This document shows positions 12,904 to 49,554 of a DNA stretch of 52,254 bases, piece by piece. The stretch spans positions 1 to 52,254 of the forward strand of contig CATKHK010000149.1 of assembly GCA_949751835.1 (NCBI GenBank), read 5' to 3'. Below the pieces are notes generated by a model. The model worked only from the letters and a program-made list of their open reading frames with translations, was not told the origin of the DNA and did no database searches. The position numbers and the translations under genes were made by a program. This DNA is from Blepharisma japonicum. Its lineage: Eukaryota > Ciliophora > Heterotrichea > Heterotrichida > Blepharismidae. The first letter of the stretch is position 1, and every line of letters starts with the position of its first letter.

Positions 12904-14008
12904 TATAAAATTATTTCATTTTCATATCAAATCATTTAATTTATTAGTATTTTAGTATATAAGTAAACTTCATTATCTTACTTTAAATGTGAAATCTTAT
13001 TAAAATGCTATACTCCTGATTTAAAATAATCTATTGTAAAGCAAGTGTCACGCTCTTATCCAAAATCGGACGATACCTCCATTTTTAACAATGAAAAAAA
13101 TTCTCTAATCTTCCTGTGTCTTAGAGCCGATAGATTCTAATTGAGCTCCAGAACTCTTTTTATTTTGATTTCATTACAAAACAAGACCAATATAATTGTT
13201 CTATTTAAGTTTTCATTTGCTCCTTCTGCATCAGGAAAAAAATTGATATAAATATATGGCTATATAAGAAAAATAAGTTAGGAGAGCAAGCTGTCATATG
13301 CATATACATTTATTCTTTAATTTAAATAAAATTATTAGATAATATTAGATTAAACTCAGAAATATCACGCAGATAATAAAAAATTAGATTATCTTCAAAT
13401 TTTCGATGAGAAGAATTTCAAAAAAAAACTTGCAAAAATTTTAATATAAATAGGCATATTAAATTGCATACATTCTCCTCACACTATCTCAATTGTCTAT
13501 TTAGTGAATAATCCGATACCTTCAAATGCTAAAATGGCTTTTAAAGCTGAGCATCTTAAAAATTAAAAGCTGTTTCACTTCTTAAATCTAAGTATCTTGC
13601 TAAAATTTATTAAAATTTTAGTGACTGTTATTCAAATAGCTCTTAAACAAAATCAGTTAGGTCGACCAATTCCAATTTTTACTTAATTAATCTGAATTTA
13701 CTCATTGTCTTGTAATATTTATTCTTCGCCTATAATTTATTTTTAATCTCAGCCTTTTAATCTCATCAACTCAGGATTTATTTTTTAAGGTGTCTCACCT
13801 TTTCTTAACCTGCTTTCTAATTTTATCCTTAAATTATTAAAAGAATTATAAATGACCAATAAATTCAGTTTTTGCTGGCTTAAATGGATCATAATGTCAA
13901 TTATAAACTCACCACAAACAGAAAATCTCAAAAGACCTGCTTCTCATGATTTATTATTTTACTCATAATTTTATTCATATCTTAAACATAAAATTCGAAC
14001 TTAATTGA
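12904..14008. other. Intergenic spacer between divergent genes
   Basis: About 1.1 kb of AT-rich sequence separating the minus-strand F-box gene from the plus-strand fibrocystin-L-like gene. Stops are frequent in all frames; no gene or RNA was recognised. It must hold both upstream regulatory regions. Confidence 0.5.
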
Positions 14009-17000
14009 ATGGCTTATAATAATATGCTGTTAATAACACTCATTATTGAGGCTTTGTTTATAGCTTCAATCGGTATAGAAATCTCAGGTATCTCTACAGA
14101 TCCTTCGACTCCAAATCAGGGATACCTGACTGGTTCAGTAGCTGGAGGCACAACCCTTTATATCCGAGGCATTTTCGACTCTGAAGACCCAGCATCAAGT
14201 CTAATTTACATTGACGGCCAAAACTGCACTATCATAGAGTTTTATTCCTCTGGAAGCTATCTGCAATGCATAACCCCTCCGTCTAAACATCCTAATGGAG
14301 CGACAGTCCAAATCACTGCACTTTATTATAACACTGAAATTCTGGTGGGCCAAGGCGTAAGCATGGAATTCACCTACACCAAATGAAGCACGCCTGTAGT
14401 TTTTTACATGAATCCAGCTGAGGCAGTTCCAGGAGATGAGGTAAGTTTTGTTGGGAGGTGAATGACCACTTCTTGGACTCAATTCGAAAATGCAAAAACA
14501 GATACCCAAAATATGATCATGTACTTACTGGATTCAAGCCAAACTTTTGGATCTTGGGATGTCATGAACCTAACTGCGGTGCTAGGAGACAATGATCATG
14601 GAGATAAAAACTCAATTATTAAGCTTAATGGCCCTTATGGATATGGCTGAAATCTTTGGAATGGGTATCAGTATGATATTTTCCAAGGTGTTTCGTACAA
14701 TTTTAGAGCTCTGGCAAGGATTGATAAGATTTCTGCAAGTAGTGGAAGTGCAGCTGGTGGTCAAACTCTGACGATTGAAGGAGAGGGCTTCCCGCTAACG
14801 TCATCATGGGTTAGGGTTGAGATAGATGGGAATGATTGCGATGTGGTAAATCTTGAGTACTCAAAAATTACTTGTAATACGTCTCCATCAATGCAGAGCA
14901 CCAGCTCATTAATATATGAAGGCAGTGCTGGGCTGATCAGACAACTATGGAGCGACCAATCAACAATTTCATTAAACTTTGACGATTTAGTCAGCATAAA
15001 TCCTAACTTTACCTTTAATATAGCAACTGCGCAGATCCCAAGAGACGAAGACACTTACATAAGAGACAAAATGTATGGCCTCTTCAAGGCGCCAGTCACC
15101 GGAAACTACAGCTTTTTTGTCTCTTCTGATGACTACTGCGAAATTTTCTTATCCTCAAGTGATAATTCTACTACTAAAACCTCAGTCTTTAAATATCAAG
15201 GCTCCACTTCATTAAGAGATCAGTTCAGCAGAACTGTTCCAAGCGCCAATATTGAGCTAGAAAAAGATAAAAATTACTACATAGAAATTAGACATACCCA
15301 AGGAAGTGGGTCAAGCCACTTAGATGTCGGCGTCAAAATCTCGAACTCCAGCTTGCCAAATACTATGCCTTATATCCAGAATTTGCAGATTTTGCCTGCT
15401 GACGTAGTCTATGAGGTCCAAACCCTTAAAATATTTGGGACAAATTCAGGACCTACTGGTGGAAGGCTTAGGCTGGTCTATGGAACCCAAGTAAGAGACC
15501 CAATCGACTGGAATGCAGACTCTGGGATGTGAACCTGCTCCGATATCCTTAACCAAACTTATTATTTAGGCTTAGCAGGATCTCTTTCATGTCTAGGGTT
15601 TTGGCAAGACAGTAACACTTTGGCTTACAACCTTACTTTTAACTATTTGGTCTCTGATAAGAGATACAAGTTCTCAGCAGATACCACTCTTTTCCAGCCC
15701 TCAAGCATGATTTCTATTTCAAACACGAAGTATCCAGGTACAACAACAGTCAGTGGGAAGTTTAAATTAGGCTTTAGAAATGCAACTTCTCAGTGGTTTG
15801 ATATCAGCACTTCTGTTGACAATTTGCAGTTTTACTTAAACCAGCAGGTTGAGCCGTTTGAGAACAATTTAATTATTTATGGCTCTAGCACTGGATTTCC
15901 TTTTAAGGTCCTGCTTGCTCTGCCGTGGTATATGTTTGATGGAAAGAGCTTTGATAGCATCTCTGTTGCAGATACAAATTTTACTGGAGGAAATATAGAA
16001 GGATCATCAGATCCAACAAGTATTACGATTAATATAGACACAGTGTATTTGCCAACTGATGGCGCATACTGGCCTGTAATACCATCAGACTTCTTGAGGA
16101 CTGCAGAATCCTCTCCTCAGGTAAGAGTTTGGGTGAATAATACCTTAGCAATGTGCAGAGGAGACTGCAGCTATCAGTACCTCTCATACCCATCATTTGC
16201 CGAAATTAATAGTTTTGCCCAAACTTTAAGCACTCTTACCATTACAGGTGAAAATTTCCCGACAGATTCAAGCACTCTTTCAGTATCTTTAGGATACGCT
16301 GACTGTACTGATATTTCTTCAACTATTTCCCAAATAACTTGTACAGTTCAGCAAGGCGTTTATGGCAACTATCAGCCAATAGTAACAATTTCTGGACAAG
16401 GAATAATTCCTATAGACCCATCATTTACTGATATGATAAGCTTTTCTCTATCAGTAGATTCAGTTTCTCCTGCTTCAGGAAGCATTATGGGAGGCACCAC
16501 AGTTACCATTACAGGAAGCGGCTTTTATAATTCTCTAGATAACCCGAACTACCAACAAGTTGTATATATTCAAGATTCTCCTTGTGAAGTAATAAGTACA
16601 TCAACTACCGAAATTCAATGCATCACAAGTGAGCAGACAGGCTCGGGAGCAGATTTAGAAGTATTTGTGAATGGACATCAAGCGACCTTAGCCTATTCTC
16701 TTTATAGCTCAAGCAGTACTCCTCAAGTCACTTCAGTGAGCCCAGATTACGCAAGCACTACTTTTCAGACAGATATTGTGATCCAAGGCAGCTTGTTTTC
16801 AGATAATCCTGATGATATATCTGTTAAAGTTGGAAAACAAATGTGCTTTGTGAAGAGCTCAACAAGTACTGAAATTCACTGCAGTATATTGGGAGGACCA
16901 GGTGGAGTATTTCAAATGCAAATATTTATAGCTCAATATGGCTATGCCCAGTTCCAAGAGCCGCTAAGCAATAATTATGAGTTTAAATTTGATATTCTGT

Positions 17001-20000
17001 CAATTAGTCCTATAATTGGGTCAATTAATGGTGGGACAGAAATCACTATAACTGGACATGGATTTTCAGACAGACCAAGCACATTGCTAGCATTTATAGG
17101 AGATGAGTATCATCCATGCACTATTACAAAAGTAAAAAACGAAACGATAATTTGTACATCATCTGCTTATTCATCTGAGCTAACAAAAGATCATAATTAC
17201 AGAATATTTGTGGTAGGAAGAGTTCAAATTGAGACCACTTGCAAAGGCTCTTGCACTTTTGCGTGGTCAGATGCATCTACTCCAGTAGTTTCTTCAATAT
17301 CTCCAAATATTGGTGCCTCAGGAGATGCTATCACCATTACAGGCTCAAATTTTGGATCAAAGCCAAGCAGTGTTCATTTTTCATTCGGAGGTGTAGAAGC
17401 TAGCATCATTTCTTGCTCTGATACTGAAATAGTGGCTACAGTTCCAAGCACCAAAAATGTCCATCCAACTTTGAAGCTTGAAATAGATGGCAAAGGTCTT
17501 GGGACTCTTTCAGAGTTCACGTTTACGAATAATGTGGTTGTGGCTAATGTCAGTCCTAAAACAATTTCTCAAGGTGGTGAGGATATCACGATAACTGGGT
17601 CTGGCTTTGACAATGGAATGGCTTTTGCATTTGGCTTGGTTTCTTGCACTGTCACTCAAATAACAGACACTCAAGTGTTTTGCAAAGCAGGACCTTCTAG
17701 TTCAAGCAGTACTCCTCAGTCATTAGTGATTACTGGATCTGGATCATTTTCATGCTCAGACGATTCCTCTTGTGCTATCACTTATTCATCTTCGTTTACC
17801 CCAAAATTAGGCTCATCAACTTCTGGATTTTTAACAATCCCATTCACAGCTCCTACAGGTGGCGACGCTGTTGATGAAACCACTGTGAAAGCTTGGCTAG
17901 GGACTAGTCTTTGTCCATTAAAAAGTGTCAGCTCCACTGAGATTGTCTGCACTCCAAGCGTTGCTGCAGGAAGCTATACAATAACATTACATGTAGACGG
18001 ATATGGATACTCCACAGGAAGCTTAACCTCTAAGATTACCCTTACTATTGCAAATGTTGATACATTGCCATCTTCTTATGCAGGTGGCCAAAACGTAACT
18101 TTGACTGGAACAGGACTAAGCGAAAGCTTAGGAGTTTATCTATGTGGATTCCAATGCATAGTTCAGACTGCGACTGGAGACTCTTTAACTTGTCTAACCC
18201 CTCGGCTAATTACTGCATACTCACAAGAAACATTCAAATTGGCAGATTCACCAACCCAGCTGACAAATTTCACTGTGATCTCTAGTACCACAGGCGGAGA
18301 AGTTGCATTTGATGGAAATCCAAGTACTTCTTATAGAGACACAAAGAATAATTTTGCATATGTAGGAGTAGACGCTGGAGAAGGCCGCTACATTCAGCTC
18401 ACACAAGTTACTCTTATAGGAGGCGGACCAAGCAATAATTATTACAAATATCTAGTCGGCACTGTCATTCAAGGCTCCCAAGACAATGTGACTTGGGATA
18501 GTCTTTACAACTATACAATAGTCACTGACTATACTAATAAATGGAACGTACCTCAAAATACCCAACCTTCTGACAACTATCCTGTCTACACCTATAGATA
18601 TTATCGTCTATATAAAGAATTTGCAGGCAATGACTACTATATCAATGAAGTGACCATATTTGGCTTTATAGGTCTCACTGAGACAGCTCAAGATATAACT
18701 TGTGATTTGACTACAAGTTATCTTCCTAACTCTGGCAGACTGCTCCAGTCGTGGTCATCTGCAGTCCAGTATCAGTCTTCTATTACTCCTTATATCAAAG
18801 ATTTCTCTCCAAAATTTGGGACAAGTCTTGGAGGTGACACAGTCTACTTTTACGGCTCCAACTTTGGCGACCAGACAACAGCTTCTCAAGTAGAAATATT
18901 AATTGACGAGGTGGCTTGCCAAGTTACATATGTCAATAATACACAAATTAGGTGCATAACTTCAGCAAGACCGAATTACGTCCCATCTTCTTTGGTAATG
19001 AGCATTTCTGGGGTTGGGTCTGTTATAACTCATGGGATGACTTATCTGTATGCAGAAAGGTGGAGTGATCACGCTACATGGGGAGGAGAAGTCCCGCCAT
19101 TTGAAGGAGAGACTGTGTGGATCCCTCAAGGACAAAATATTTTAATAGACGTTGCAACTCCTCATTTGGGCTTGATTTTAGTAGAAGGAAGCTTGATAAT
19201 TGAAGATATTGCAGGGCTTAGCATAGACGCTGACTATATCTTTGTCCATGGAGGTCTCTTGCAAATAGGCACAGAAAAAGAGCCATTCCAAAACGATTTT
19301 ACCATAACAATTCATGGAGACAGAAATTCTGCCTTATTGCCTTACTATGGCAGTCAGTTTATAGCTTTCAGGACAGGAGTTTTAGATATCCACGGAGTGC
19401 CAAGAAACCCAACCTGGACTGTAATAGACGGCACAATTACCCCAGGCGATATTATTTTCAAAGTAGCTGAATCAGTTGACTGGAAAGCTGGGGAAGAAAT
19501 TGTAGTTGCTTCTACCTCATTTGACCATAATGAAGCCGAAATGATGACTATTGACTCTGTAAACGGTTATGAAATTACTGTGACTACTCCTTTTAAGTAT
19601 AAACATTATGGAGAAATCGAGACATATGGGAGCGATACCATGGACATGAGGGCTGAAGTCGGACTTTTGACTCGAAATATTAAAATTCAAGGCGGGCCTG
19701 AAGGCGTCCCTCAAGAATGTGGTGTCCATCTCATGCTTTTTGCTCCAGGTGACGAGGCTTGTATAGGTAGAATTGAATATGCTGAGTTTTATCATGCAGG
19801 GCAAGCTTACAGACTGGGCAGGTACCCAATCCATTTCCATATGATTGGAAAGGTAAGTCTTTCTTATATCAGAGGCAACTCAATTCATCATACGTTTAAT
19901 AGAGCTATAACCACCCATGGCGTCCATTACCAAACCCTTGAAAACAATGTGGCATACAGGAATAAAGGACATGCCTATTTTATTGAAGACGGGATTGAGA

Positions 20001-23000
20001 CTATGAATAAATTCCACCATAATTTGGGGATAGGCACAATAGCATCTTTTTCTCTGCTGAATACTGACCAAATGCCAGCCACCTTTTGGATTACCAACCC
20101 AAATAACTTTTTCTGGGAAAATCATGCAGCTGGGTCAGACAATTTTGGGTACTGGATTTCACCTCCTGAAAACCCTGGTGGCCCTTCAGCGACTACACTT
20201 ATTTGTCCTCCGTTTTTACCTTTGGGAGAGTTCAAGGACAACACAGCTCATTCTAATGGGCAGTATGGCTTCAGGATCTGGCTGGGACATGTCCCACTTG
20301 CAGATCCATGCTCTCCAGGTCGAGATTTGTCCTTATTAGACCCATTCTCAGTTAATACAGCTATAACAGCTAACTACTACAGATATACCGGCTGGAAAAA
20401 TCAACAGGATGGAGCCATTGCAGAGGACGTAGGAGACGTCAGATTTATAGACTTCAAAGTGGCTGATCACCATAAAAACGGAATCGAAATTTCTTATACA
20501 GAGTTTTCTGAGCCTTACCAGACTGCAAGAATTACTGGTGCTTTAATTATAGGCAAGTCTGGGAATACTGAAAATGACGTCGCAGGAGCTATAGGGCTAA
20601 CAACTCCACAGACAGATGGACTTTTGGTGCAAAACATAAGATTTTATAATTTTGACGATAATATGTATCCTCTTGGAGACGAGTCCCACTCAGAAAATGT
20701 TGAGGTTAGAGACTGGGGTGGGAGAATGCATATGCTTTCTGGGCTGTCTTTTACAAATTCCCACAAGAGAATTTCTTGGAATATTCCTTATAGAGGCATT
20801 TTTAAGATTCTTGATGAGAGCTATAACGGAGTTGCAAATTCTTATGTAACTGCCTATTGGCCTCATCTTCTGACTCCTGAGTGTGTTCATGAGCCTGATT
20901 TGTATCATGCAATTGTGTGCCAGCCTAATGTATCTGTTAAGAGAGTCCTTTTCTATAACCAATCGCCATTTGGCTTATTTGCATTTCAAAATTTACATAT
21001 CCGCAGAACTTCTGGCAGCCAAATTCCTGAAGAAACCTACGAAGTAACTATAAACGGGACATCAGTTAACCAAACTCAGCCGATATGGTCATCTCTTCCT
21101 ATGACAAAAGCTTGCCAAAAGAAAGACCCGCTTAAAGCATGGGGTATTCCTGTCGTAACTGGCTACAACTATACTCTTTTCTGGGGACGAGGCTGGCCAC
21201 TTGACTGAATGGACATGGACATCAGAGCTGAACAATTTGACAACGATAACCAATGGGTAATTCTCGACATGAACTTTACTGACCATAGAGAAATGTTCAA
21301 TGTCACCCGTGGAATACTTCCTTCTTCAGTCAATAAAACAGCTCCTAACTTTTCAGACCCCACACAAATGAAGTCTGTTAAGCAGTTTTCCCCAACCACT
21401 GATACCTCAGGTACTTTTTGGTGGGATAACTCAACTGATGTCCGAAGGTTCCAGATTATGTTTAATGGGGTAAATGACCATAAATATCAATACGGAAATT
21501 TCCATTTGCATGCTTATAGGTGCTTTGGAGACCATTGCAGTGATTTAGACGTCACCGACAATAATTTGCAGAATTTGACGTTGGTATATTGGAGTGACCC
21601 TACAATTTGGCCTGATAAAAAGCTGCCAGTTGCTGGGCAAAATGTATATATCCTGAACACTTGGCATTTAATGCTTGATATAGAAACCCCAGTGCTGCAG
21701 TATATAGAAATTAATGGGATTTTGGAATTTGACCGGACCCAAAACGCGACGCTGCACTCTAATTGGATTTTTGTAAGAGGTGGAAAACTGGTGAGTGGTA
21801 GTGAAGAATACCCAATTCCACCTAATATTTTCCATACAATTACTCTTCATGGGTATCCTAACTCTCCTGAGTTCGCCTTTATGAATGACATTGAAGGAGG
21901 CAACAAAGTGCTTGCAGTCACTGGAACAGTCGAAATGCACGGATATCCTAAGGCTCCATGGACTTTATTGTCCCAAAATGCATATCCAGGAGACACTGCT
22001 ATTTTTGTAGATAGCGTTGACTGGAGCGTAGGTGATGAAATTGTGATCGCTCCTTCTGGCTTTGATTATAATGAAGCTGAAACCTTTGTAGTCCAAGATA
22101 TAATTGGCGCACTGCCTCAGTATAAGATTCCTGCTATGAACTCTTCAAGAATACTAATAGACTTTTCAGCTGACAATGACTGGATTAAAGCCAATAGTCT
22201 CAGAAATGCAGGTAAAAACCCAAGTAATACTGACCAAAGTTTGTCCCAAGAATCAGTGGCAGGAACTTCTACTGGGATTTCTAAGATTATCCTCAATAAA
22301 CCTCTCCAGTTTTACCACTCTGGAGTACAAATGCAGATCCAAGGACAAATAGTAGACACCAGGACAGAGGTAGGAGTTCTTAATAGAAATGTAAAAATCC
22401 AAGGTGATGGCTACGTCGGCTGGGGCTGTACTTCAGTAGTCAGTGATTTCTATGACGTTTTAACTTCAAATAATGTACCAGTCTGGAGATATAGCTCTGT
22501 CAACTTAACCAATGTAGAGTTTTATCAATGCGCCCAAGAAGACACATTTAAGGCTGCACTCAGGTTTGGCCTAGGTGGAAAAATCCAATCAAGAGTCCAT
22601 AACTCAGTGGTTCGTGAATCCTACTCCTTTGCAGTCAGCATGATCCAGACCAGCAATGTCGAGTTTTCCAGCAACTTAATTTACAAGACTTTGTGGAAAG
22701 GAGTTGTAGGCTCTGAAATTCAAAACGTCTCCTACACTGACAATTTAGTAATTGGGACGATGAACCGTGGGTTTTTGACAAACGACCTTGACGTTCCAGC
22801 CTGTTTCTTTATCTGTGCAGATCCTCCTAACTGTGTAAATATCACTACTGTCAGAAATAGAGGGGTTGGCTGTGGCTTGACTTCTTTTATGCTGGGCGGG
22901 CAAGACTGTAACAGCAATAAGGTTACTCATTATGTCGCTGACAATATAGCTCACTCTTCGTCGATTGGGTATGTCATAAGTGGACAAGACGGAGTCAGCT

Positions 23001-25114
23001 GTGTGAGTGCAAATAACCTAAAAGCGTGGTTTTGTGAGCAAGGTATAGGAGCCCAAGGCGGGACTGTGTATACATTCAAGCTATCAGGCTTAGTCCTTGT
23101 AGAAAATCAAATGGGGTTGGCTATAAGAGGATCCTATGAAGATGATTTTGACCACCATACAAGCTATATTTCAGACAGTTTATTTGTAGGAAGAACTCAG
23201 CAGAGCTACTGCGACGGCAGTAATTGTGCAATTGCAGACTGTATAGATAGAAAAGGCCTTATAACTGGAGTTTTTGATGTAAAAATCAAGACTCTTGGGT
23301 ATGCTGATAAGCTGTCTGCTCCTATTTATGGAGCTATGAAGATGGAGTGTGGCTATGGCCATTGGGAGCTCTCCTCAAATACTTTTATTAACTTTGTACG
23401 CTCTGCGTGTGGAAGAGATTATGCCATGGCTGGCAACGACTTAGTTCCTAACTTATCATGGCCTTCACTGTTCTCAAAAACTTCATTTATTAATGTAGAT
23501 TCCTCGTCTATTGCCTGGATGCCTAAGCCTGATGTCAGTCTTATTGGAGTTGGCTTTTGTGGAAACTGGGTATGCACAGGGGAAAATAATATTCTTATTC
23601 AAGATATAGATGGCTCAATTACAGGCAGCACACTAGGAGGCGCAATAATCCCATATGTCCCAGGAATTGCTAATCTCAAAATATGTAAAGCAAATAGCCA
23701 GGGGCAGTCTTTTATGTGCCCATATGACACAGCAACAGGCGAGTTTTACGAATTCGTGATATTTGAGTCTATGGACGTTGACAAGTGGAATAGGACTTTT
23801 TCTCCTTTAAACATCACATCATTTGATATTGGAAATGGAAATGCTTTCCAAAGCTTCAGCACTGGAGGGTTTAGGAATGACCTGAACGAGTATGAAGATA
23901 TGGGCTGGATTGGATTTTATAGAGATAATGCACATTTAAGCAGATTTGGGTCAATTATTTATACAGGACAATATTATAACCTGACAATGACTGGAACCCC
24001 ACCAGGAAAAATGACTGTTGTGACTGAAGCCAGCTTGGACTCTTCAAAAGGATTTGTGATGGCACTTAGGTATGATTCTCCACAAATTATCAATGTATAT
24101 ATAAATGGGACTAAAATAAAAGCTTTGCAGTATGATGGTGTCTCAACCCCAGTCTGCCAGCTCTCAGACCCAACTGGTACTAATCGTTGGTTCCATGAAA
24201 ACGCTACAATCCAGTGGGTGCAAAGAGGAAATGCCAATATTACCTTGGTCCAGACCAGCTCAGTCCAGCTGACAATGGAGCTAGATATGACACTGAAAGA
24301 GTTTTACAGCAATACGACCCGCGCTACTTTTATTGACAGACTGGCATCAGTCTTAAATATTCCTTCTTATAGGATCAGAATTGCGAGCGTAAAGCAGGGG
24401 TCTGTTATTCTGAACATGATGGTAGAGCCTGATGAGAATTTAGAAGGAAAAACAAGTTCATCAGGGACTTCTATGGCAGACGAAGAGCTACAGAGCATTA
24501 ATACCAAAATTAATCAGCTGGCTAGTAACAGTGCTTCACTTTCACAAAGTCTAGGAGTGACTATTATGGCAGTCACCTCAAAAACCTCAGTTGTCTCTTC
24601 TTCACAAACAGACACAAGGTCTAGTAGCAGCAGCGGAAGTTCAGGGGATAGTGGAAATAATAACCCTGGAGGGAACACTGGAGGAAATAACGGAGGAAAC
24701 ACTGATAATGGAGGGGGTAGCTATAACCCTGGAGGAAACATTATATTTGAAGGACATTTCAACGAAGCGATGAGTGACTGGGTGGTTGGACTTTTGGTAG
24801 GACTGATTTTATTAGTGATGGCAACTGGCTCGGTTCTTGCTTATACGTTCAGCAGGAGAAAGAGGTTTTCGTTAGAAGAACCGGGATCTACCAAAATTCG
24901 TCCTATTTTGGAAGAAGTAGATGAGCAAAATGCTTTGTCTTTTGATTCACCTAAAAAATCTGCTTTTCAGTTTGAAGAAGGGGATGCTCGCAATTTCCAT
25001 CGAGTTTTCACGAAGGATGAGGAAAATAAAGAAGTGGAGGCAGATACAGTCAAGGTAGTGGAAGACATAGAGCCTGTTCATCACTCACACCATGCGTCTC
25101 TTGTGGACGTTTAG
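14009..25114 (+). CDS. Fibrocystin-L (PKHD1L1)-like giant surface receptor
   Basis: One intronless frame of 3701 aa ends in TAG; five TGA codons (residues 126, 151, 214, 508, 2400) read as Trp. Order: signal peptide 1-22; TIG/IPT repeats from about 25; a PA14-like domain near 300-460 (GLFKAPVTGNYSFFVSSDD); further TIG repeats about 735-1400 (SPASGSIMGGTTVTITGSGF); a discoidin-like domain about 1404-1559 (GNPSTSYRD, YRYYRLYK); another TIG; G8 domain 1 near 1683-1778 (ATWGGEVPPFEGETVWIP); parallel beta-helix repeats (HFHMIG, SYIRGNSIHHTFNRA); G8 domain 2 near 2525-2615; a second beta-helix; a possible SEA-like segment near 3430-3500; a Ser/Gly/Asn linker about 3535-3578; a transmembrane helix about 3590-3612; and a cytoplasmic tail of about 90 residues. 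The architecture matches animal PKHD1L1 (about 4200 aa), a ciliary or surface protein. Adhesion or sensing at the ciliate surface is inferred. Confidence 0.93.
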
Positions 25115-25232
25115 TCTCAAGTAGACTTAAATAAGTAAAAATCTTTATCATAAAATTATTTTGTGCTGTTTTGGCATAGAAAATGCATATATTTAAATAT
25201 CACCAAAGCTCTTAATATCTTAATATATATTT

Positions 25233-26324
25233 TTATAATTTTAGAAGTCTTTTTGTCTCCAAATCAAATTTAAACACCTGGAAATTTTTATTCCCTGATG
25301 TAATAAACCAAATGTGTCCATTATAAACTTTTACTTGTGAAACTGAGTTCCACTCAAGATCATTGTCTCTAATACGAGTATAAGCATACTCATTTTCAAA
25401 CTCGCTTTCAAAAATTCCTCCTCTTTCCAAAAAGTACACCCTTGAGCCTGCTTTGAATAGAACTCTTGGTGTAAATGTTTTAACTGTCACAGTATTTATT
25501 TTCGAATAACTCTCTATTTTGACATCATATTTATATATTTCCTTATGTCCTACCCCACAAATCAATATCGAGTCTTTAAAAACTGTGCAGGCACACATAC
25601 TGCTGGGCTCTGGAAGGCTGGGAACGTGATATCAGATCTTTTTTTCCAAGTCAAATCTTCTTGCTTCGTTATATATTTGATAATTATAGGCTCCTCCAAA
25701 AAGATAGATAGAATTCTTATAGTAAGCCCCTCCTGGGTATTGTATGTCGAGAGCTATAGGCACCTGAATTTTATTTTTTAAATGCAAATCCAGAATGCAA
25801 GGTATCCCTGCGCGATTATTGGGATTTCCAGCGCAGTAAATAAATAATTGAGAATTTGGGAGAGAAACAATACAAGCTCCAAGCTGGAAGCCCTCCGAAG
25901 GCAAATGCTCTGATTTTTGGGTTTCCAAGTTGTAAATTTGTAGACCAAGTCCATCCGGTGCTCTATTGCAAATTATAGAGAGAGTTCGAGAGCCAACTAC
26001 AGACTGCTTCATAAAGTTCTTATAATTTTCAGCAAGACTTGAGAATTCTCTACTATAATTTGAATACATAGCATTGAATTCAGCGTCAACTTGGGTTAAA
26101 AGCTCAAAAGTACCCTCGTGTTTTTTGATCGAAGCACGAAGAAGCTTGTATTCATCTATAATTTCAGATCTAATTTTATCAATTTTCTCTTCATCTTCAA
26201 ATAACTCAAATAGAGAGATGAAATCTTTGATTTTTTGATTTATCTTTGGAATTATTGTCATTCCGGTATTAATTTCCTCTATAAAAATTCTTATATCAGG
26301 TAGTTTTCTTTTTGTATTTTCCAT
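25233..26324 (-). CDS. Kelch-repeat protein with N-terminal coiled coil
   Basis: A 363-aa frame runs from ATG at 26324 to TAA at 25233, crossing one TGA (25632-25634) that supplies the Trp in LEKKIWYHVPSLP. The further upstream frame has only a TTG, so the ATG before ENTKRKLPD is chosen. Residues 1-115 are helical; residues about 120-363 contain kelch-type blades, one with a classic double glycine (SIYLFGGAYNYQIYNEARRF) and others weaker (CTVFKDSILICGVGHKEIYKY). It lacks the zinc motif and TPR tail of the larger relatives at the right end. Decayed copies lie nearby (27480-27800 plus, 28073-29400 minus). Kelch propellers bind protein partners; the partner is unknown. Confidence 0.8.
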
Positions 26325-29699: not shown

Positions 29700-30158
29700 A
29701 AATAAAGTTAAAAAAAGGATATTAGAAAGATAATCTAGCTAATAGATTTAAATATATTTAAAATGCCTAGAAAACCAAATAAGCATGAGGATTTTTTAAT
29801 AATTTATTTTCTAGTATGTGCATCAAATGATTAAATCATGTAAAGCACAGATAATAAAATTTTATTGGAATCTTTCAAATCTAGTAGCTAGTGAAGAGAA
29901 ATGGCTCCTGATCTGCATAAGATTAGTTTATTACCCTAGAGTTAAAATTTTATTCTATTATCACTTAATAGAAAAACTTGGATTTCAATAATCAATAGCT
30001 TAAATGCTATTATGGTCATACGAAAAAGGCATTCCTTATTTCTTGGCCTGATTTAATAATAATAGTAAAATGATACCAACTGTACTTTCAATTTAATTAC
30101 TTTATATTTAATAAGTGTTTAGATCATAGAAAGTAATTTTTCTTTAGCTCTATAAAAC
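29700..30158. other. Intergenic, upstream of the first pentapeptide-WD40 gene
   Basis: AT-rich, stops in all frames, nothing recognised. Confidence 0.5.
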
Positions 30159-32390
30159 ATGTCCTTAAAGCAAGAAAGAAAGCAATATTTCTCGATAATA
30201 AATTACCGAGCAGTTAAGAAAAGCTATGATTCAAGAAATATTGATGAATATTTAGTGAAATGCATTTTGGAAGATATAAGAAATCGGAAAAGCAGCACCG
30301 ACTTGATCAAAACTTCTTATATAAATAAGCTTGAAATATTTGACCTTCCAAATATTTATCTCTTATTTAACAATTTTTTAGATCAAAATTCCAAAGAAGA
30401 CCTCTTGCAAGTTATTTTTCTTTCAAGATCCTCTACAGAAATTGATTTAGCATGCAGCAATGCTGCAACTATACTTGCAAAAAGTGATTTTTCGTTTAAG
30501 AATATCAATTTAAGCAATATCCGCATTCCAAAGGCTGATCTATCCCAGTGCTTACTTATAAATGTGAATTTCGAAAACAGTGACTTAAAAGAAGTTAAAT
30601 TTTTACAATCTCATATTATTAACGTGAATTTTAAAAATTGTGATCTCAGTAATGCACGATTTGGCATTTTATTGAAAACTAGATTACAGCATGCTATAGG
30701 ACTTAACTTCTCTCCTAATGAGAAAAAATTTTACTATAAAAATAATGATAGCTTGATGAAAATGGATTTGAAAACACAAGAAATAAAATTTAAATATGAT
30801 ATGAATCATTTTATTTCATCACATATCATTGCAATTTATAACACCAAACGTAAATCATATAAAGCTATAATTTCTGGACAGTATATGAAAATTTGGAATC
30901 AGTATGTCCAAAATTGTTTATTTATGATAAACACAGCTAAACTTGCAATTTCACCAAATTGAAAATATATTGCTGCTCTTGATAGCAAGACATGGACTCT
31001 TTGCTGGGATATAGAAATAAATAAGCAAACGCTTGGAGCAATCAAAGGTTTCAATTATAAGGGTTGCCAGCTGGTTTTTTCCCCATGCAGCAAATATTTA
31101 GCGATTGTCGCCAAAAAAGTAATTTATATAATTGAAACTGAGAACTGAACCCTAGCAAAGTCAATTTGGGGGAATTTTCCAGTTAAAAAAGCTTATGCAC
31201 TTTCTTATCTTGGTGAAAGAATTGCATATGGTGATACGAACTTATTACAGCTGATAAATACAGCCACATCAGATAAAACCAGAATCTATTTAACTCATAA
31301 AAAAATCAGAGGACTGTCATTTTCTCCCTGTGGCAGATTTTTAGCTTTCGGATCAAATGATAGTGCTGGGTATATCTTGAATTTAAAAAGCCAAAAAATT
31401 TCTCACTTTTTTACTGGATTTGAAACGAATGTGTTTTCTGTATTATTTTCACCATCAAATAAATATATTTCTTGGAGTGATTCTGATGGTAATATCAAAA
31501 TCTATGAATTTTTCCCTAACATTTTAAAAAATGACTTTAATAGACATTATCAAGTCCAAAGAGCCAAAATATCTCCTAAAGGATCATATCTATTTACTTC
31601 AAGTGCGGATAAAGCAATCTTGTGAGACTTAACAACGTTTGTTCCAAAGCAAATAAAGCAAATAGCCGACGGCGGCTCATATGATGAATATGTCTTTTCT
31701 CCGTTCGAAACATATTTCGCTTTTGGAATTTTTGATAGTGTCCATATTTACGATATAAATCTTGATGTGTTCATTGTGCATAAATCCACAAATTATTGGT
31801 GGCATTATTTTACATTTTCTCAGCATGAGGATTGCTTGATCTCTTTTAATGGGCGTTGTTATGAATATTATAGTTTTCCTAGTTTTGAGATGTTTAGAAA
31901 AATTGATACTCAAGAGTCAAGAGGATCTTCAATTATGTTTTCCGCTTGTGGAAGGTATCATTTAAGGAGCTCAAATCTTACTATTTATATATGTGACTTA
32001 GAAAAAGGCGCTACTATTAAAAAATTGTACTCACAAAATTGAAATTATAAATTTATTTTTACTCCTCTTTTGAAGCAAGTCGCATATCTTGATTCCAAAC
32101 TTAATGTTTTTATCAGAGTTTGAATAATAAAAACTGGTGGAAATATTTCCTTGAAGATTTCTGGGGAAAAACCAGCTTGCTGCTGCTTCGCTTCTGATGA
32201 AAATTTGATTGTGGGAGGATATACAAATGGAGTGATTAACGTATGAGATATTAAAACGCAGACTGTTATAGAAAAGATCAGAACTTTATTTTTAAGAGAT
32301 AGTAATTGAGTTGGAGCTATCAACGGTCATATTTTGATAAAAGAAAAAGACAATATTGAAATTTTCAAGTCCAACCAGCTGGGCTTTAGG
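30159..32390 (+). CDS. Pentapeptide-repeat and WD40 protein, array copy 1
   Basis: The 743-aa frame ends at TAG 32388-32390; at least seven TGA codons read as Trp (ILWDLTTF, NWVGAING, VWDIKT). Residues about 1-95 are helical, about 95-165 hold pentapeptide repeats (LINVNFENSDLKEVKFL, INVNFKNCDLSNARFG), and the rest holds WD40-type blades (GLSFSPCGRFLAFGSND, ISWSDSDGNIKIYEF). The last codons differ from the paralogues: an A5 run at 32339-32343 has one more A than needed, so the conserved KEKDNIEIF ending is out of frame and translation ends QVQPAGL. Pentapeptide solenoids and WD propellers are protein-binding scaffolds. No catalytic motif is visible; a cytoplasmic scaffold or sensor role is inferred only from architecture. 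Copies 2 and 3 follow on the same strand and copy 4 lies at 40010. Confidence 0.85.
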
Positions 32391-33214
32391 TAACTTTAAT
32401 ATAAAAAATTATTAGGAATTTTTTTAAAATATTAAATGGTAAGACTTATCAATTATATGAAAGCAATCTAAAAAAACGAGTAATTGATTTATAGGTGAAA
32501 AGCCCATAATTGCAAGTTGCTAGAATTTCTGACTGGACTCGTAATGCTACTTTTAAGCCACTTAAAGAGATACCAAAGAAATATTAAAGGTCTTAGATAT
32601 ATCTTATTTAAATGTAAGTAATTGCATAAAAATCAAAATTAAATTAAAAGTAGGTAACAATATGTTGATACTTAATTTTCCCTTATGAAAGTATTACTTG
32701 AGCTAAAATTATATATATAAAGCCCTGATAAAAAAAGTATTTATTTTAGCATTTTTTATATGTTTATTATATTGTTTGATATTAAATAAAGATAACACAT
32801 ATCATTATCATTTTGCCTCTTCGGCCAGATAAAACAATTGGCATATTGTACCAACAGATCTAAGATTAAATTAATGACCTTTTTTAATTTTTTTTGAATT
32901 AACTGGATGTTTAAATAAATCATAAATAAGAGAATATTATAGTGAATTTTTTTAATATTTAAAGCCCTAGCTTTTTCATTGTAAATAATTTGGTGCAAGT
33001 GTTAAATTAAAGCTTTAAAGCTAAATCATTTATGATTCTTACCTTAAAATAATTTGGGTTGTGTGTTGATTTTAAACAGTTATTCTAGGAATAGTAATTA
33101 ATTTATATTTTTCTGATATTGGTGCAATAATAATACTTTATCATTTCCGATATTTAATCTTGTTTAATACTGAGGATATATAAATAACCAAAAAAAATTA
33201 ATTAAGGAGGGGTT
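32391..33214. repeat. Intergenic spacer, left copy of a duplicated spacer
   Basis: From about 32690 onward the sequence matches 35645-36180 closely, with small indels (both contain AAAGCCCTGATAAAAAAAGT and TGTACCAACAGATCTAAG). It is the upstream part of the duplicated unit carrying array copies 2 and 3. No gene. Confidence 0.75.
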
Positions 33215-33350: not shown

Positions 33351-33408
33351 TTAAAACAAATTCCTAAATGCAGCTATATATACGGATGTTTCATGTTGTT
33401 AATTTATA

Positions 33409-35595
33409 ATGAATAAAATCAATAAACTATTGAATCGATCAGAACAACAATATAACCAATATTTAACCAAGAAAATTCTCAAAGACATCAGCATTTGCAA
33501 AAATATTGATATAATCAAGAACTCTTATTTAAACAAACTTGATTTAATTAAATTCCCTGATATATTACATTGTTTTTATAGTTTAATTAGTGAATGTATC
33601 AAAGAAGACCTAATAAAATTAATTTTACTCTCAAGATCATCAAAAGAAATTGATTTGGCATGTAGTAATGCCGCAACCATACTTGCTAAAAGCGATTTTG
33701 TATTTAAAGACATCGATTTCAGCCGAATTCGTATCCCAAAAGCTGATTTATCGCAACACCTATTCGTAAATGTGAATTTCGAAAATAGCTACTTAAAAGA
33801 AGTCAAGTTTTTGCAGTCACAATTTCAGAACGTGAATTTTAAAAATTGTGACCTCAGCTGTGCAAATTTTGGACATTTTATAAGATTTAATTCAAAGAAT
33901 GGAAAAGGACTCAGTTTCTCTCAGGATGATAAATATTTTTATTACCAAAATGATGATAGCATCCAAGTAATGGACTTAAGAGAGCAAAAATTTAGAAATG
34001 AATTCAGCTTAAACGATTTTATTACTACAAATATTATCCAGATTCTTAGCTCTAGAATTAAGCTTTCCTTAGCCACGGTTCATGGTCAGTATATAAGGCT
34101 TTGGGATAATTATGAAAAAAGACTTATATATGAGCTTAATTCACATCGACTAGTAATTTCGCCAAATTGAAAATATATTGCTGCGCTTGATACTAACTCA
34201 ACTGTTCTTAGCTGGGATATAGAAAAGCACAGACAGATTCTTGGAACTGCTAAAGCGCTCACTTACAGAGCTTCAAAATTGATTTTTTCTCCGTCCAATA
34301 GATATTTAGCAATAATAAGAGCAAGCTCAATTTCTGTAATCGAAACTGAAAATTGGTCTCTTTATAGGAAAGTTCGAGGAAAATTTCCTGTAAAAAACAT
34401 TTTTTCCATCTCTTACTGTGGCAAAAAAATAGCCTTCTATGATTCTGAAACACTATATTTGATAGATACTATTACCTCAGATAAAACAAAAATCTTTTAT
34501 AATGCAAAAAAAATATTATGTTTATCATTTTCTCCTTGTGGGGATTTTTTAGCACTCAGTCCAAAAGGTAATGAGGGATTTATCATAGATTTAAAAACTA
34601 ACAATATTTCCCAAATTTTTGCTGGATTTAAAGGATATATTCTGTGAGTAATATTTTCTACTTCAGGAAAATATATTTCTTGGGCCGATTCTAATGGTAA
34701 TATAAAAATTTATGAGTTTTCCTCGAAATATGTCAACAATGATAATAATAGACATCTTAAAATTCAGAAAGCTAAAGTATCCCCAAGAGGTACATATCTG
34801 ATTACTTCAAGCATAGAAAAATCTATCTTATGAGATCTGAGAACTTGCAATCCAAAACAAATAAAGCAATTCATGGAAATATGGTCTTATGATGATAATT
34901 ATATATTTTCTCCTTTTGAAAAATATTTATTGAGAAGATTTTCTAATAAAATACAAATATATGATATCAATCACAATTTTTCAATTAAAACATTAAATTT
35001 CCCACAATGATGGTCTCTTGAATATTCATTTTCTTATTGTGAAAGCTATTTGATCTGCTTAGGTATCGGTTTTTATGAGTATTTCAGGATATCTGACTTA
35101 AGTTGAGTTAGAAAGGTTAACATTCAGCAAAGTTTTAGCCATCTTAGATTTTCTGAGTGTGGAAAATATGATTTTTGATATGACTCTCAAAATATTCTTT
35201 ATATATGGGATTTAGAAAACGGCGACTGCATGAAAAAATTTCAAATGGAAGGACGACATTCCATATGCGCACTTACTCCTTTTTTATCAAAGATTGCATT
35301 TTTTGCCTCAAGAGAAAAAACAAATTATATAGATGTTTTCAATGTCAATACTGGAGAAATTGTTAGTCTAAAAAGTGAAGGACAAAATTTTTGTAGCTGC
35401 TTTGCTGATTCTAATGGAACTATGCTTGTTGAAGGGTGCGAAAAAGGGACTTTTAAAATATGGGATATAAAATTAAAAACTGTCAAGCAGAAATTTAGAT
35501 CTTTATTTTCGAGAAATATTAGTGCAGTTGAAGTTTTTAATAGTCATATTTTAATAAGAGAAAAAGATAATGTTGAAATTTTCAGATTAGCTTAG
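33409..35595 (+). CDS. Pentapeptide-repeat and WD40 protein, array copy 2
   Basis: The 728-aa frame runs from ATG (NKINKLLNRSEQQY) to TAG. TGA supplies Trp at several sites, for example ILWDLRTC and the start of WVIFSTSGKYISW; the Trp in RLWDNYEK is TGG at 34102-34104. Residues 1-90 are helical, including a conserved block (LILLSRSSKEIDLACSNAA); residues about 95-165 are pentapeptide repeats (NIDFSRIRIPKADL-type, then VNFENSYLKEVKF and VNFKNCDLSCANF); residues about 165-728 are WD40-like blades ending REKDNVEIFRLA. Nearly identical to copy 3. No enzymatic motif and no signal peptide or membrane helix, so probably a cytoplasmic scaffold. All frames are intact, which argues it is expressed. Confidence 0.88.
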
Positions 35596-36312: not shown

Positions 36313-36445
36313 ATCTATATTTTTAAGTCACAATAATATAAGCCAAAGTAATTAGGCTCAGGATTGAAAGCTGGGAAAAATATTTAATTAATAGAAACTC
36401 CTAAATGCAGCTATATATACAGATATTTCATGTTGTTAATTTATA

Positions 36446-38638
36446 ATGAATAAAATCAATAAACTATTGAATCGCTCAAAAAGACAATATAATCAATATT
36501 TAACCAAGAAAATTCTCAAAGACATCAGCATTTGCAAAGATATTGATTTAATCAAGAACTCTTATTTAAACAAACTTGATTTAATTAATTTCCCAGATAT
36601 ATTACATTGCTTTTATAGTTTAATTAGTGAAGGTATCAAAGAAGACCTAATAAAATTAATTTTACTCTCAAGATCATCAAAAGAAATTGATTTGGCATGC
36701 AGTAATGCCGCAACCATACTTGCTAAAAGCGATTTTGTATTTAAAGACATCGATTTCAGCCGAATTCGTATCCCAAAAGCTGATTTATCCCAACACCTAT
36801 TCGTAAATGTGAATTTCGAAAATAGCTGCTTAAAAGAAATCAAGTTTTTGCAGTCACAATTTCAGGACGTGAATTTTAAAAATTGTGACCTCAGCTGTGC
36901 AAATTTTGGGCATTTTATAAGATTTAATTCAAAGAATGGAAAAGGACTCAGTTTCTCTCAGGATGATAAATATTTTTATTACCAAAATGATGATAGCATC
37001 ATAGTAATGGACTTAAGAGAGCAAAAATTTAGAAATGAATTCAGCTTAAACGATTTTATTACTACAAATATTACCCAGATTCTAAGCTCTAGAATTAAGA
37101 CTTTCTTAGCCACGGTTCATGGTCAGTATATAAGGATTTGAGATAATTATGAAGAAAGACTTATATATGAGCTTAATTCATATCGACTAGTAATTTCGCC
37201 AAATTGAAAATATATTGCTGCACTTGACACTAATTCAACTGCTCTTAGCTGGGATATAGAGAAGCACAGGCAAATTCTTGGAACCGCTAAAGCGCTCACT
37301 TATAGAGCTTCAAAATTGATTTTTTCTCCGTCCAATAGATATTTAGCAATAATAAGAGCAAACTCAATTTATGTAATCGAAACTGAAAATTGGTCTCTTT
37401 ATAGTAAAATTTGAGGAAAATTCCCTGTAAAAAACATTTTTTCCATCTCTTACTGTGGCAAAAAAATAGCCTTCTGTGATTCTGAAATACTATATTTGAT
37501 AGATACTATTACATCAGATAAAATAAAAATATTTTATAGGGCAAAAAAAATATTATGTTTATCATTTTCTCCTTGTGGGGATTTTTTAGCACTCAGTCCA
37601 AAAGGTAATGAGGGATTTATCATAGACTTAAAAACTAACAATATTTTCCAGATTTTTGCTGGGTTTGAAGGATACATTCTGTCAGTAGTATTTTCTATTT
37701 CAGGAAAATATATTTCTTGGGGCGATTCTAATGGTAATATAAAAATTTATGAATTTTCGTCGAAATATGTCCACAATGATAATAATAGACATCTTAACAT
37801 TCATAAAGCTAAAGTATCCCCAAAAGGTACATATCTCATTACTTCAAGCATAGAAAAATCTATCTTATGAGAACTGAGAACTTGCAATCCAAAACAAATA
37901 AAGCAATTCATGGAAATGAGTTTTTATGATGAATTTATATTTTCTCCTTTTGAAAATTATTTATTGAGAAGATTTTATGATAAAATACAAATATATAATA
38001 TCAATCGCAATTTTTCAATTAAAATATTAACTTTTCAACAATGATGGTCTCTTGAATATTCATTTTCTTATTGTGAAAGGTATTTGATCTGCTTAGATAA
38101 ACGTTTTTATGAGTATTTCAGGATATCTGACTTCAGTTTAGTTAGAAAGGTTAACATTCAGCAAAATTTTAGTCATCATCTTAGATTTTCTGAGTGTGGA
38201 AAATATGATTTTTGATATGACTCTCAAAATATTCTTTATATATGGGATTTAGAAAACAGCAACTGCATTAAAAAATTTCAAATGGAAGGACGACATTCCA
38301 TATACGCACTCACCCCTTTTTTATCACAGATTGCATTTTTTGCCTCAAGAGAAAAAACAAATTATATAGATGTTTTCAATATCGATACTGGAGAAATTGT
38401 TAGTCTAAAAAGTGAAGGACAAATTTATTTGTTTTGCTGCTGCTTTGCTGATTCTAATGGAACATTGCTTATTGAAGGGTGCCAAAAAGGAACTTTTAAA
38501 ATATGGGATATAAAATTAAAAACTGTCAAGCAGAAATTTAGATCTTTATTTTCGAGGTATATTAGTGCAGTCGAAGTTGCTAATAGTCATATTTTAATAC
38601 AAGAAAAAGATAATGTTGAAATTTTCAGATTAACTTAG
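36446..38638 (+). CDS. Pentapeptide-repeat and WD40 protein, array copy 3
   Basis: The 730-aa frame is near-identical to copy 2 throughout. At residue 232 it has TGA (37139-37141) where copy 2 has TGG in the same RxWDNYE context, a direct internal demonstration that TGA means Trp. Another CGA-to-TGA change turns KVRGK into KIWGK. Helical N-terminus, pentapeptide block (VNFENSCLKEIKFLQSQF) and WD40-like blades (LYIWDLEN, FKIWDIKL) are conserved; the stop is TAG. The intact frame after duplication suggests both copies are functional. Role unknown; a protein-interaction scaffold is likely. Confidence 0.88.
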
Positions 38639-39315: not shown

Positions 39316-40009
39316 TTATTAAATTTTTGATATTTCTTAATTAATGTCGCAAAAATATTAATTAATTTTCCCTTATGAATATATCATCAAATTTTATAAT
39401 TTCAATTTTTAACTTCAGCTATCAGGAAATATAAAAAACGAAGGTTTAAAACTAAAAATTATGATTTTAAAGCAATTTATTGAAAATCAAGCATACGCTT
39501 ATAATTCTTCAAAGTATCCTCCTATATACATTTTTCTATATAAATGAAAATCTATTGTACTTTGAAGATATCAAAACCAAATTAAGATTATATAATCGCC
39601 TCTAGTCAATTATGGAAAATAAGTATGGGTTCACAAAATATAGGTTTTAAGAAAAGCTTAAGTCAAAATGCAAAGCATCAAACAGAGCCAATACAGTTTA
39701 TTTTTATTAATTATAAATTAAATTAATGGATATTTTCTCATGTATTTTTTTGGATGAAGTTTTTTGGATTCATTTTGATAAACAAAATGTAAAAAACAAC
39801 TAGTTTAGAATTGTATACAAGAAAGGTTAAAAACTTGAATAAAAAAATTCTTGAAGATTTCAGCCCTTTTAGTGCAGAGTGGCAATTTCGCATTTTCAGA
39901 AGATAACGGTTTATTTAAGAATCATTAATTATATATTTGATAGATATAGTTGATGTATATTAAACTATAGGCCTCATAAAGTTTTAGAATCCAAAATTTT
40001 TATCAAAAT
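39316..40009. other. Spacer with a relic of the pentapeptide-WD40 N-terminus
   Basis: Mostly AT-rich. About 39640-39800 resembles segments near 43800-43935 and 44940-45120 that also lie upstream of Rab copies. Near 39840-39910 a KILEDFS-like piece may be a decayed family N-terminus. No intact gene. Confidence 0.45.
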
Positions 40010-42259
40010 ATGAATCAAAATTCGGTGATAAAAAAGGAAGGCATGATTGGAAGACATAAAGAATTGAATAATAGTCTAAGGCCAAAAATGAGTTCAAAAA
40101 GAGATTATGATGCTTATCTAGCACAGAAAATCTTGCATGATGTAAGAAACTGAAAAAGTATCGACTTAATTAAAGTTTCTTATCTAAATAAGCTTGAATT
40201 GGTTGCCTTTCCAAATATTTATACCTTATTTAACAAATTTTTAGATCAAACTCTCAAAGAAGACCTGCTAAACTTAGCATTACTTTCAAGGCATTCAAAA
40301 GAAATTGATTTAGCATGCAGTAATGCTATAACTATCTTAGCCAAAAGTGATTTTCCTTTTAAAAATATAGATTTAAGCAATATTCGTGTTCCAAAAGCTG
40401 ACTTATCTCAATGTTTATTTATAAATGCAAACTTTGAGAACAGTAACTTAAAAGAAGTCAAATTTTTACAATCGCAATTTCATAATGTCAATTTTAAAAA
40501 TTGTGATTTAGGCAATGTAAAATTCGGGTTTATTACGAAAATTAGTTCACAAAATGGGAAAGGATTAAGTTTCTCTGCTAATGATGACTATTTTTACTAT
40601 AGAACAGATGATAATTTGATGGAAATAGATTTAAAAACTCAAGAATCTAAAGTTAAGGCTAGATTAAGTGATTTTGTTTCTACCCATATTACTAAAATTC
40701 ATAGTACTTTGTTTAATCCATATACTGCAAAAATTCATGGGCAGTACATAGGGCTTTGAGCAGAGTATATGCACAAATTTATATTTGACATAAATATGAC
40801 TAAGATGGTTTTTTCATCAAATTGAAAATATTTAGCAGCTCTGACTGAAAAGTCAATAGTTCTATGCTGAGATACAGAAAAGCAAGTCCTTGGAGCCTCA
40901 AAAGCTACTACCTATCGAGGTGCGCAGTTAGCTTTTTCTCCATGCAACAGATTCTTAGTAATAATCAGGACAACTTTAATTTCCCTAATAAAAACTGATA
41001 CTTGGACTCTTTTTAGATCAATTCATGGGAAATTTTCTGCTAAAAGTGCTTTTGCTTTTTCACATTGCGGAAAAAAATTTGCATTTAGTGATATTAGCTT
41101 AATACAATTGATAGATGCTACAACTACAGAAAAAACGACAATTCATAGGGTCGGTTCCTGTGATAAAAAGGTTAGAGGATTATCATTTTCTCCGTGTGGG
41201 AGATTTTTGGCTTTCGGGTCAAATGAAAATGTGGGATATGTGATGGACATAAACTCTCAAAATGTTACACAAATTTTCACTGGCTTTGAATCCAATGTGC
41301 TATGTGCATTATTTTCAATTTCAAATAAATATATTTCTTTTAATGATTCTAAGGGAAATATCAAGATCTATGAATTTTATCCAAAATTTCTCCAAAATGA
41401 TTATAATCGGCATAATCAAATTCTTAATGCTAAAGTATCCCCAAAAGGCGCATATCTAATTACTACAAGTGTAGAAAAATCTGTTTTATGGGACTTGAGA
41501 ACTTTTAATCCAAAACAAATAAAAAATTTTGAAGGTAATCATTATACCCTTTTTGTGTTTTCTCCATTTGATACCTCTTTAGCTATAAGAAAATATCCAA
41601 ACCTTCAAATTTATGATATTGAGTACCAATTATGAGGAAAGCCTAAGCAAATGAGCTATTATTGCAATTATCTCTCATTTTCTCATTGTGGAAAATATTT
41701 GATCAGCGTGAATGAAACTTTCCTTGAATATTTTAGGATCCCTGATATGGAAATGGTAAAAAAAGTTGATATTAAGCAGCAAGGATATAGATCATTAAAA
41801 TTTTCTGATTGTGGGAAATATCACTATTGAACTGACTCATATTATAATATATACATTTGGGACATAGAAAAAGAGAAGTTTGTCAAGGACGTTTCTATTA
41901 ATGAACAGTACTCAAGATATGGTTTTACACCTTTTTTAACACAAGTGGCACTTTTCGATTGGAGAAAACAAATCAGAGACTGTCTCATGATCTGATATCC
42001 AGATTCTGATAAGGTTTCTTATTTAGTCAGCAAAGGGGAAAATATAAATTGCTGTTGTTTTTCACATGACGAAAAATGGCTTGTTGGAGGCTATGAAAGA
42101 GGGAATATTAAAATATGGGATACCAAAACTGAATCCGTTAAAGAAAAATTCCGATCTTTGCTTTGTAGAACTATTGATACAATTGAGGTTGTTAGTAGCT
42201 GCATTATAATAAGGGAAAAAGATAATGTTGAAATTTTCAAGTCTATAAAATTAGGCTAA
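40010..42259 (+). CDS. Pentapeptide-repeat and WD40 protein, array copy 4
   Basis: The 749-aa frame runs from ATG 40010 to TAA 42257-42259, with many TGA codons as Trp (RNWKSIDL, GLWAEYMH, HYWTDSYY, MIWYPDSD). The N-terminus is longer than in copies 2 and 3 (about 40 extra residues before RDYDAYLAQKIL). The conserved helical block (SKEIDLACSNAITILAKSDF), pentapeptide repeats (NANFENSNLKEVKF, NVNFKNCDLGNVKFG) and WD40 blades (GLSFSPCGRFLAFGSNE, NIYIWDIEK, NIKIWDTK) follow. It is more diverged than copies 2 and 3 are from each other and resembles copy 1 in places. Function unknown; scaffold inferred from architecture. Confidence 0.88.
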
Positions 42260-49438: not shown

Positions 49439-49554
49439 ATTTATAATCAGGAATAATTAAACCTAGGAATCTTGGAGTTATTGTTGGATTTTGAAAATTA
49501 TGGAATCCTTGAAGATATGATCAGAAATATAATGAATTATGCTTATAAAGATTT

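Follow-up and report, generated by a model that had tools for sequence, protein, structure and literature searches.

A complete gene of the ciliate Blepharisma japonicum with the domain order of the fibrocystin family

Does a ciliate carry a member of the fibrocystin/fibrocystin-L family, whose animal representatives have been linked to kidney disease and deafness, and which part of such a protein might do the work? The question is raised by an open frame of 3,701 amino acids (aa) on the forward strand of a Blepharisma japonicum contig (CATKHK010000149.1, assembly GCA_949751835.1, positions 14009..25114). The whole contig, 52,254 nucleotides in length and numbered C149 in our analysis, is referred to as the window. 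An initial annotation made from the letters of this stretch had read the frame as a PKHD1L1-like receptor with a full animal-like architecture. We report here that the complete domain layout of fibrocystin is present in this ciliate in two intact copies, and that the first of its two G8/beta-helix modules is indicated as the conserved working part of the protein. A residue altered in a family with hearing loss corresponds to a position in this module, within a motif common to bacteria, the ciliate and human TMEM2, and the conserved motif offers a concrete test of what a disputed class of beta-helix proteins does.

On the basis of sequence comparisons, we lean towards the view that the gene encodes a ciliate member of the fibrocystin/fibrocystin-L family, namely a giant single-pass surface glycoprotein that would act in the cell coat or in adhesion and whose first module would bind or trim glycans. 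Statements about published proteins and genomes are drawn throughout from excerpts of the respective articles.

The gene and its domains

Read with genetic code table 4, the gene runs as one open frame from ATG to TAG, exactly as the initial annotation had delimited it, and contains five in-frame TGA codons read as tryptophan; with table 11, the same stretch splits into open reading frames of 229, 1862 and 1301 aa. A full-length paralogue with the same domains lies on another contig (C75, 21025-32133; 70% identity over 3,681 aligned residues). Because this paralogue has TGG (three times) or other aromatic codons (TAC and TTC, once each) at the five TGA sites, the assignment of TGA to tryptophan is well supported. 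The single TGA of the paralogue itself faces GAA (Glu) in the window gene, near the leader. Genome-wide, 18 of 35 PKD_channel matches contain an in-frame TGA, and three of the 35 a TAA or TAG. The published Blepharisma genome is described as 41 Mbp in size, 66% AT, with UGA encoding Trp and with introns of 15-16 bp (PMC9942806); the assembly searched here comprises 45.2 Mb in 224 contigs. An intron scan returned one 15-base candidate, which is weak evidence because other lengths gave as many candidates or more.

The domains found in the gene are as follows.

14009..25114, + strand: complete gene in a single uninterrupted frame (3,701 aa; ATG at 14009, stop TAG at 25112-25114, TGA read as W)
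14009..14074, + strand: hydrophobic leader at the N terminus, a probable signal peptide (hydropathy only; residues 1-22 with an approximate end)
14129..14350, + strand: first TIG/IPT domain (residues 41-114; Pfam TIG, 35.1 bits)
14717..14941, + strand: second TIG/IPT domain (residues 237-311; Pfam TIG, 44.4 bits)
15071..15334, + strand: PA14, matched part (residues 355-442; Pfam, 26.1 bits)
16211..18211, + strand: array of eight TIG/IPT domains (Pfam; starting at residues 735, 815, 905, 998, 1092, 1178, 1288 and 1346)
18281..18547, + strand: discoidin-like (F5/8 type C) match (residues 1425-1513; below the Pfam cut-off in both paralogues)
18788..19033, + strand: last TIG/IPT domain (residues 1594-1675; 54.3 bits), immediately preceding the first G8 domain
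19076..19423, + strand: G8 domain 1 (residues 1690-1805; Pfam)
19721..20272, + strand: module 1 beta-helix (CEMIP_beta-hel, residues 1905-2088), part of the region in which the two paralogues agree most
19820..19840, + strand: RYPIHFH motif (residues 1938-1944), in which H1944 aligns with human TMEM2 H552
19916..19918, + strand: H1970, identical in TMEM2 and in all 82 non-eukaryotic rows
19985..19987, + strand: E1993, identical in the same 82 rows and TMEM2
21608..21973, + strand: G8 domain 2 (residues 2534-2655; Pfam)
22250..22837, + strand: beta-helix of module 2, site residues lost (residues 2748-2943; profile E 2.5e-15)
24020..24460, + strand: conserved membrane-proximal region, roughly at the position of the fibrocystin SEA domain; no SEA match
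24620..24736, + strand: Ser/Gly/Asn-rich stalk (residues 3538-3576; from sequence)
24779..24850, + strand: single membrane helix (about residues 3591-3614; hydropathy)
24851..25111, + strand: predicted cytoplasmic tail of about 87 aa, similar in the paralogue and in a further gene fragment on contig C174

Over the whole protein, Pfam recognised TIG in 11 stretches (E 1e-102), G8 in two (E 5.8e-56) and CEMIP_beta-hel in two (E 1.8e-57), values well outside what chance would give, which bears out the TIG repeats and the pair of G8 domains originally proposed. The proposed PA14 domain exceeds its cut-off (26.1 against 24 bits; E 8.5e-06); the match is weak, yet it occupies the same place in both paralogues (residues 302-432 in the other copy, 28.5 bits). 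A beta-helix after each G8 domain is clear for module 1. The helix of module 2, scanned alone, scores 18.2 bits, under the Pfam cut-off of 27.3, and becomes clear with a profile built here from nine sequences, module 1 among them. The discoidin-like piece inside the TIG array reaches 19.7 and 23.7 bits, and 17.8 in the paralogue, against a cut-off of 28.2, and the slice of residues 128-240 between the first two TIG domains had no Pfam match. Hydropathy peaks near residue 7 and at about residues 3591-3614, in agreement with the signal peptide, which we regard as probable, and with the transmembrane helix of the original description.

Site residues of the first module

The two paralogues have diverged at a nonsynonymous rate (dN) of 0.226 and a synonymous rate (dS) of 1.86 (NG86; dS near saturation), which gives a low dN/dS of ~0.12. 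Their identity is maximal, at 87-89%, over residues 1801-2100.

Relatives of this module were found well outside eukaryotes. In bacterial and archaeal genome contigs, an 81-aa query gave 118 pattern matches, of which 81 were confirmed and 80 loci kept (L020-L099); in viral contigs, two of 34 pattern matches were confirmed. With a 288-aa core query, none of 48 pattern matches in viral contigs and none of 35 in genome contigs could be confirmed. The 80 loci come from lineages including Deinococcota, Planctomycetota, Verrucomicrobiota, Actinomycetota, Pseudomonadota, Bdellovibrionota, Chloroflexota, Acidobacteriota, Armatimonadota, Myxococcota and others. Stop-to-stop frames of the bacterial relatives measure 403-1,682 aa, several being cut by contig ends, and module 1 is up to 47% identical to these proteins. 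One single-module bacterial relative also carries an S-layer domain.

In a core alignment of 87 rows, 82 of them non-eukaryotic (80 bacterial and two from viral contigs), eight residues of module 1 are invariant across all 82 of these rows, TMEM2 and both module-1 copies: G1931, R1938, Y1939, P1940, H1942, H1944, H1970 and E1993. Since six of the eight sit in the patterns used to find the relatives (the GRYPxHFH motif and a stretch with G1931), their sameness is partly built in, and only H1970 and E1993, which lie in neither pattern, are free of this bias. In module 2, the window copy retains none of the eight residues, each being changed or gapped, and the C75 copy has lost seven of them in the same way; the C75 module retains a histidine in the column of H1970, where the module 2 alignment is loose, and this histidine is a minor point against a complete loss of the site.

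The residue set can be placed on a human protein. Module 1 matches human TMEM2 (PDB 8c6i) with a phmmer E of 1.7e-46 and 43% identity across the aligned core. As 23 vector residues precede residue 106 in the TMEM2 chain (PMC10206443), chain position 470, the second histidine of HFH, is TMEM2 His552. This residue has been equated with PKHD1L1 His2479, which is altered in a family with hearing loss, and has been called part of a nickel-binding site (PMC11043200); through the TMEM2 phmmer alignment, H1944 of the ciliate protein falls at the His2479 position.

Three observations sit uneasily with an active site in module 1: the excerpted text of the TMEM2 structure paper does not mention nickel; one group found no hyaluronidase activity for TMEM2 and was unable to locate its active site; and the lectin-like insert of TMEM2, where substitutions reported to reduce activity are located, is absent from the window protein in the phmmer alignment. 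A protein of the same family might carry a non-enzymatic module 1, in which the HFH/H/E set stabilises the beta-helix or binds a structural metal while the whole acts as an adhesive coat rod. We take this to be a serious contender, if not the one we would choose: the negative result on TMEM2 and the description of PKHD1L1 as a stereocilia coat protein agree with it, but another group reports TMEM2 activity on hyaluronan, so that the activity of the class is in dispute. In addition, H1970 and E1993 are kept in 82 of 82 rows outside the search patterns, and module 2 has remained recognisable while losing the set; both observations count against a purely structural role.

If the ciliate protein is indeed a surface glycoprotein with a glycan-active module, as we favour, its parts might cooperate as follows. 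The leader would direct it into the secretory path, and the TIG, PA14 and discoidin-like parts could make up an extended rod by which the protein adheres to glycans or proteins, be they of the coat, of prey or of neighbouring cells. Module 1 would be a beta-helix that binds or cleaves glycans, with H1942, H1944, H1970 and E1993 as its metal or catalytic site, and module 2 would be a degenerate copy serving a structural purpose. The tail might connect the coat to the cell and take part in signalling, and release by cleavage is conceivable by comparison with a Chlamydomonas orthologue (see below). The bacterial single-module G8/CEMIP proteins with the HFH...H...E set possibly constitute a secreted glycan-active family.

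Relation to fibrocystins and origin of the layout

The domain table of fibrocystin (PKHD1; FPC) lists IPT-PA14, an IPT array, G8-PbH1 twice and a membrane helix (PMC13424714, Table 1), which is the same order as in the window protein. Distances in the C-terminal part are similar as well: from the start of the first G8 domain to that of the second, FPC counts 808 residues and the window protein 844, and from the second G8 start to the membrane helix 1,119 and 1,057, respectively (PMC13424714). The tail of FPC comprises 192 aa as compared with ~87 in the window protein. PKHD1L1 (4,249 aa; 13 or 14 IPT domains, depending on the source) resembles the ciliate protein in its leader, its many IPT/TIG domains, its very large size, its two G8 domains with beta-helix repeats and its single membrane helix; it differs in that the window protein has 11 TIG domains above the cut-off and a discoidin-like piece in the array.

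Several measurements count against this assignment. Between PA14 and the first G8 domain, FPC has 1,610 residues and the C75 copy 1,387, and between the end of PA14 and the TIG array 460 residues face 293 in the window protein (PMC13424714). The SEA domain of fibrocystin has no counterpart before the membrane of the window protein by Pfam or PDB sequence match. In PKHD1L1 the tail is 8-9 aa long, far shorter than the ~87 aa found here; because of this difference, we file the ciliate protein in the fibrocystin/fibrocystin-L family and not as PKHD1L1 itself, and the animal-like layout originally claimed stands for the domain order, whereas the word "full" is inexact. A further point against the assignment comes from the trees, in which human TMEM2 is the only animal sequence: a clade uniting ciliate module 1 and TMEM2 was neither shown nor rejected (p-AU 0.479 with 49 rows, 0.432 with 31 rows).

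The initial annotation stressed the occurrence of the whole layout outside animals, but this is not the first fibrocystin-like protein there, since a Chlamydomonas orthologue has been published and others have been mentioned in single-celled eukaryotes. The Chlamydomonas protein, Cre07.g340450, is described, with experiments, as having a putative signal peptide, a membrane helix, N-glycosylation and proteolysis (PMC11297038). By description it resembles the window protein in its single-celled owner, its putative signal peptide, its one membrane helix and its cytoplasmic tail, and a piece of the Chlamydomonas tail is reported to be able to reach the nucleus (PMC11297038). Putative fibrocystin orthologues are reported from green algae through vertebrates (PMC13424714), and fibrocystin-like homologues are mentioned for a dinoflagellate, a diatom and a marine heterotrophic flagellate. 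Among the matches listed for open-licence PMC articles, no title concerned fibrocystin-L in ciliates.

Other relatives share module 1. TMEM2 has the RYPxHFH...H...E residues in common with module 1 and the lectin-like insert to itself, and its excerpted description includes no TIG array, as opposed to the TIG array and two modules of the window protein. The bacterial G8/CEMIP_beta-hel proteins share the module 1 family and the site residues. Pfam was run on 36 of the 82 non-eukaryotic relatives (35 bacterial-genome loci and one viral-contig locus) and returned CEMIP_beta-hel in all 36, G8 in 35, and neither TIG nor PA14 in any at E 0.001. A profile search found no second module in the 82 proteins, TMEM2 entering that search as a 310-aa piece; two modules, like TIG and PA14, thus set the window protein apart, the second module being present only in the two ciliate proteins. 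Nine relatives gave two complementary partial matches each, which we read as one interrupted module.

The trees comprise a quick tree of all 87 rows, a 49-row tree without the two module-2 rows and without 36 of the 82 non-eukaryotic ones (rows that were long-branched, near-duplicate or otherwise closely related), and a 31-row tree that includes 26 of the 82. In the 31-row tree, modules 1 and 2 group together at 91/72, under the starred support level, and a grouping of both ciliate modules with TMEM2 is again neither established nor rejected (p-AU 0.186). In the 87-row tree the two modules stand apart, with module 2 on a long branch amid bacterial rows. A tentative scenario, which we put forward as possible and not as the expected outcome, is that the last common ancestor of ciliates and animals already had the double G8/beta-helix layout, which arose when a bacterial-type glycan-active beta-helix was duplicated internally, module 1 keeping a working site under constraint and module 2 becoming a pseudo-module. 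The site of the deafness variant would then be a catalytic or metal centre of ancient origin, accessible to study in a ciliate.

The ciliate lineage might instead have joined TIG, PA14 and G8/beta-helix domains by itself, the likeness to fibrocystin being convergence by domain shuffling. TIG and G8 do occur in bacteria, both matching in the control genome of Deinobacterium chartae (counted per genome), the trees do not unite ciliate module 1 with TMEM2, and the N-terminal spacing is unlike that of FPC. Yet such a course is improbable given the shared order of TIG, PA14, spacer, TIG array, two G8-helix units and membrane helix, the G8-to-G8 distances of 808 and 844 residues, and the lack of TIG and PA14 in the 36 scanned relatives and of a second module in all 82. 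That the gene is not a ciliate gene at all, being a contaminant or a recently transferred bacterial gene, as its raised G+C content and the identity of module 1 to bacterial proteins could suggest, is close to refuted by its five in-frame TGA codons, the same code in neighbouring kelch, ankyrin, WD40 and TPR frames, the copies on three other contigs (the full-length paralogue and two pieces), a G+C content of just 32-35% at third codon positions, and the occurrence of the layout in none of the 36 scanned bacterial-type relatives.

The window as a whole is AT-rich, and the gene itself has 41% G+C, compared with 26-37% for the remaining 2-kb steps along the contig. Since third-position G+C is low (35%), the amino-acid composition of the protein probably explains most of the increase. 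Viewed by position, 14001-26000 has a G+C of ~40% and the rest of the contig 26-37%.

Further copies and genomic surroundings

Two incomplete copies accompany the full-length pair. On contig C145 (L019, 803-2990), a frame-broken stretch matches residues 669-1400 and is nearer to the C75 paralogue; it may be a pseudogene or an assembly error. The end of contig C174 (L010, 1102-1779) holds the C-terminal 225 aa of another copy, interrupted by the contig end; its identity is 72% with the C75 copy and 54% with the window gene. A search of the genome for G8 gave at least four matches, two per full-length gene, and one for CEMIP_beta-hel at least two, the module-1 helix of each gene. Other TIG matches lie on C89, C38 and C1 (arrays) and on C17, contigs on which G8 had no match.

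Downstream of the gene, four open frames of 730-759 aa follow one another on the + strand (30156-32393, 33403-35595, 36440-38638 and 39980-42259), and two of them, when scanned, gave matches to pentapeptide and WD40 propeller models; the similar lengths of the four and these matches make a tandem family likely. Two adjoining frames on the - strand (47102-49456 and 49555-51849; 784 and 764 aa) carry TPR arrays in their C-terminal halves and are perhaps a tandem pair. A search of the window for the Blepharisma telomere repeat in two tandem copies was negative, and the two ends inspected show no such repeat either. Elsewhere in the genome, the 35 PKD_channel matches, which are places and not genes, indicate that polycystin-type channels exist in this organism.

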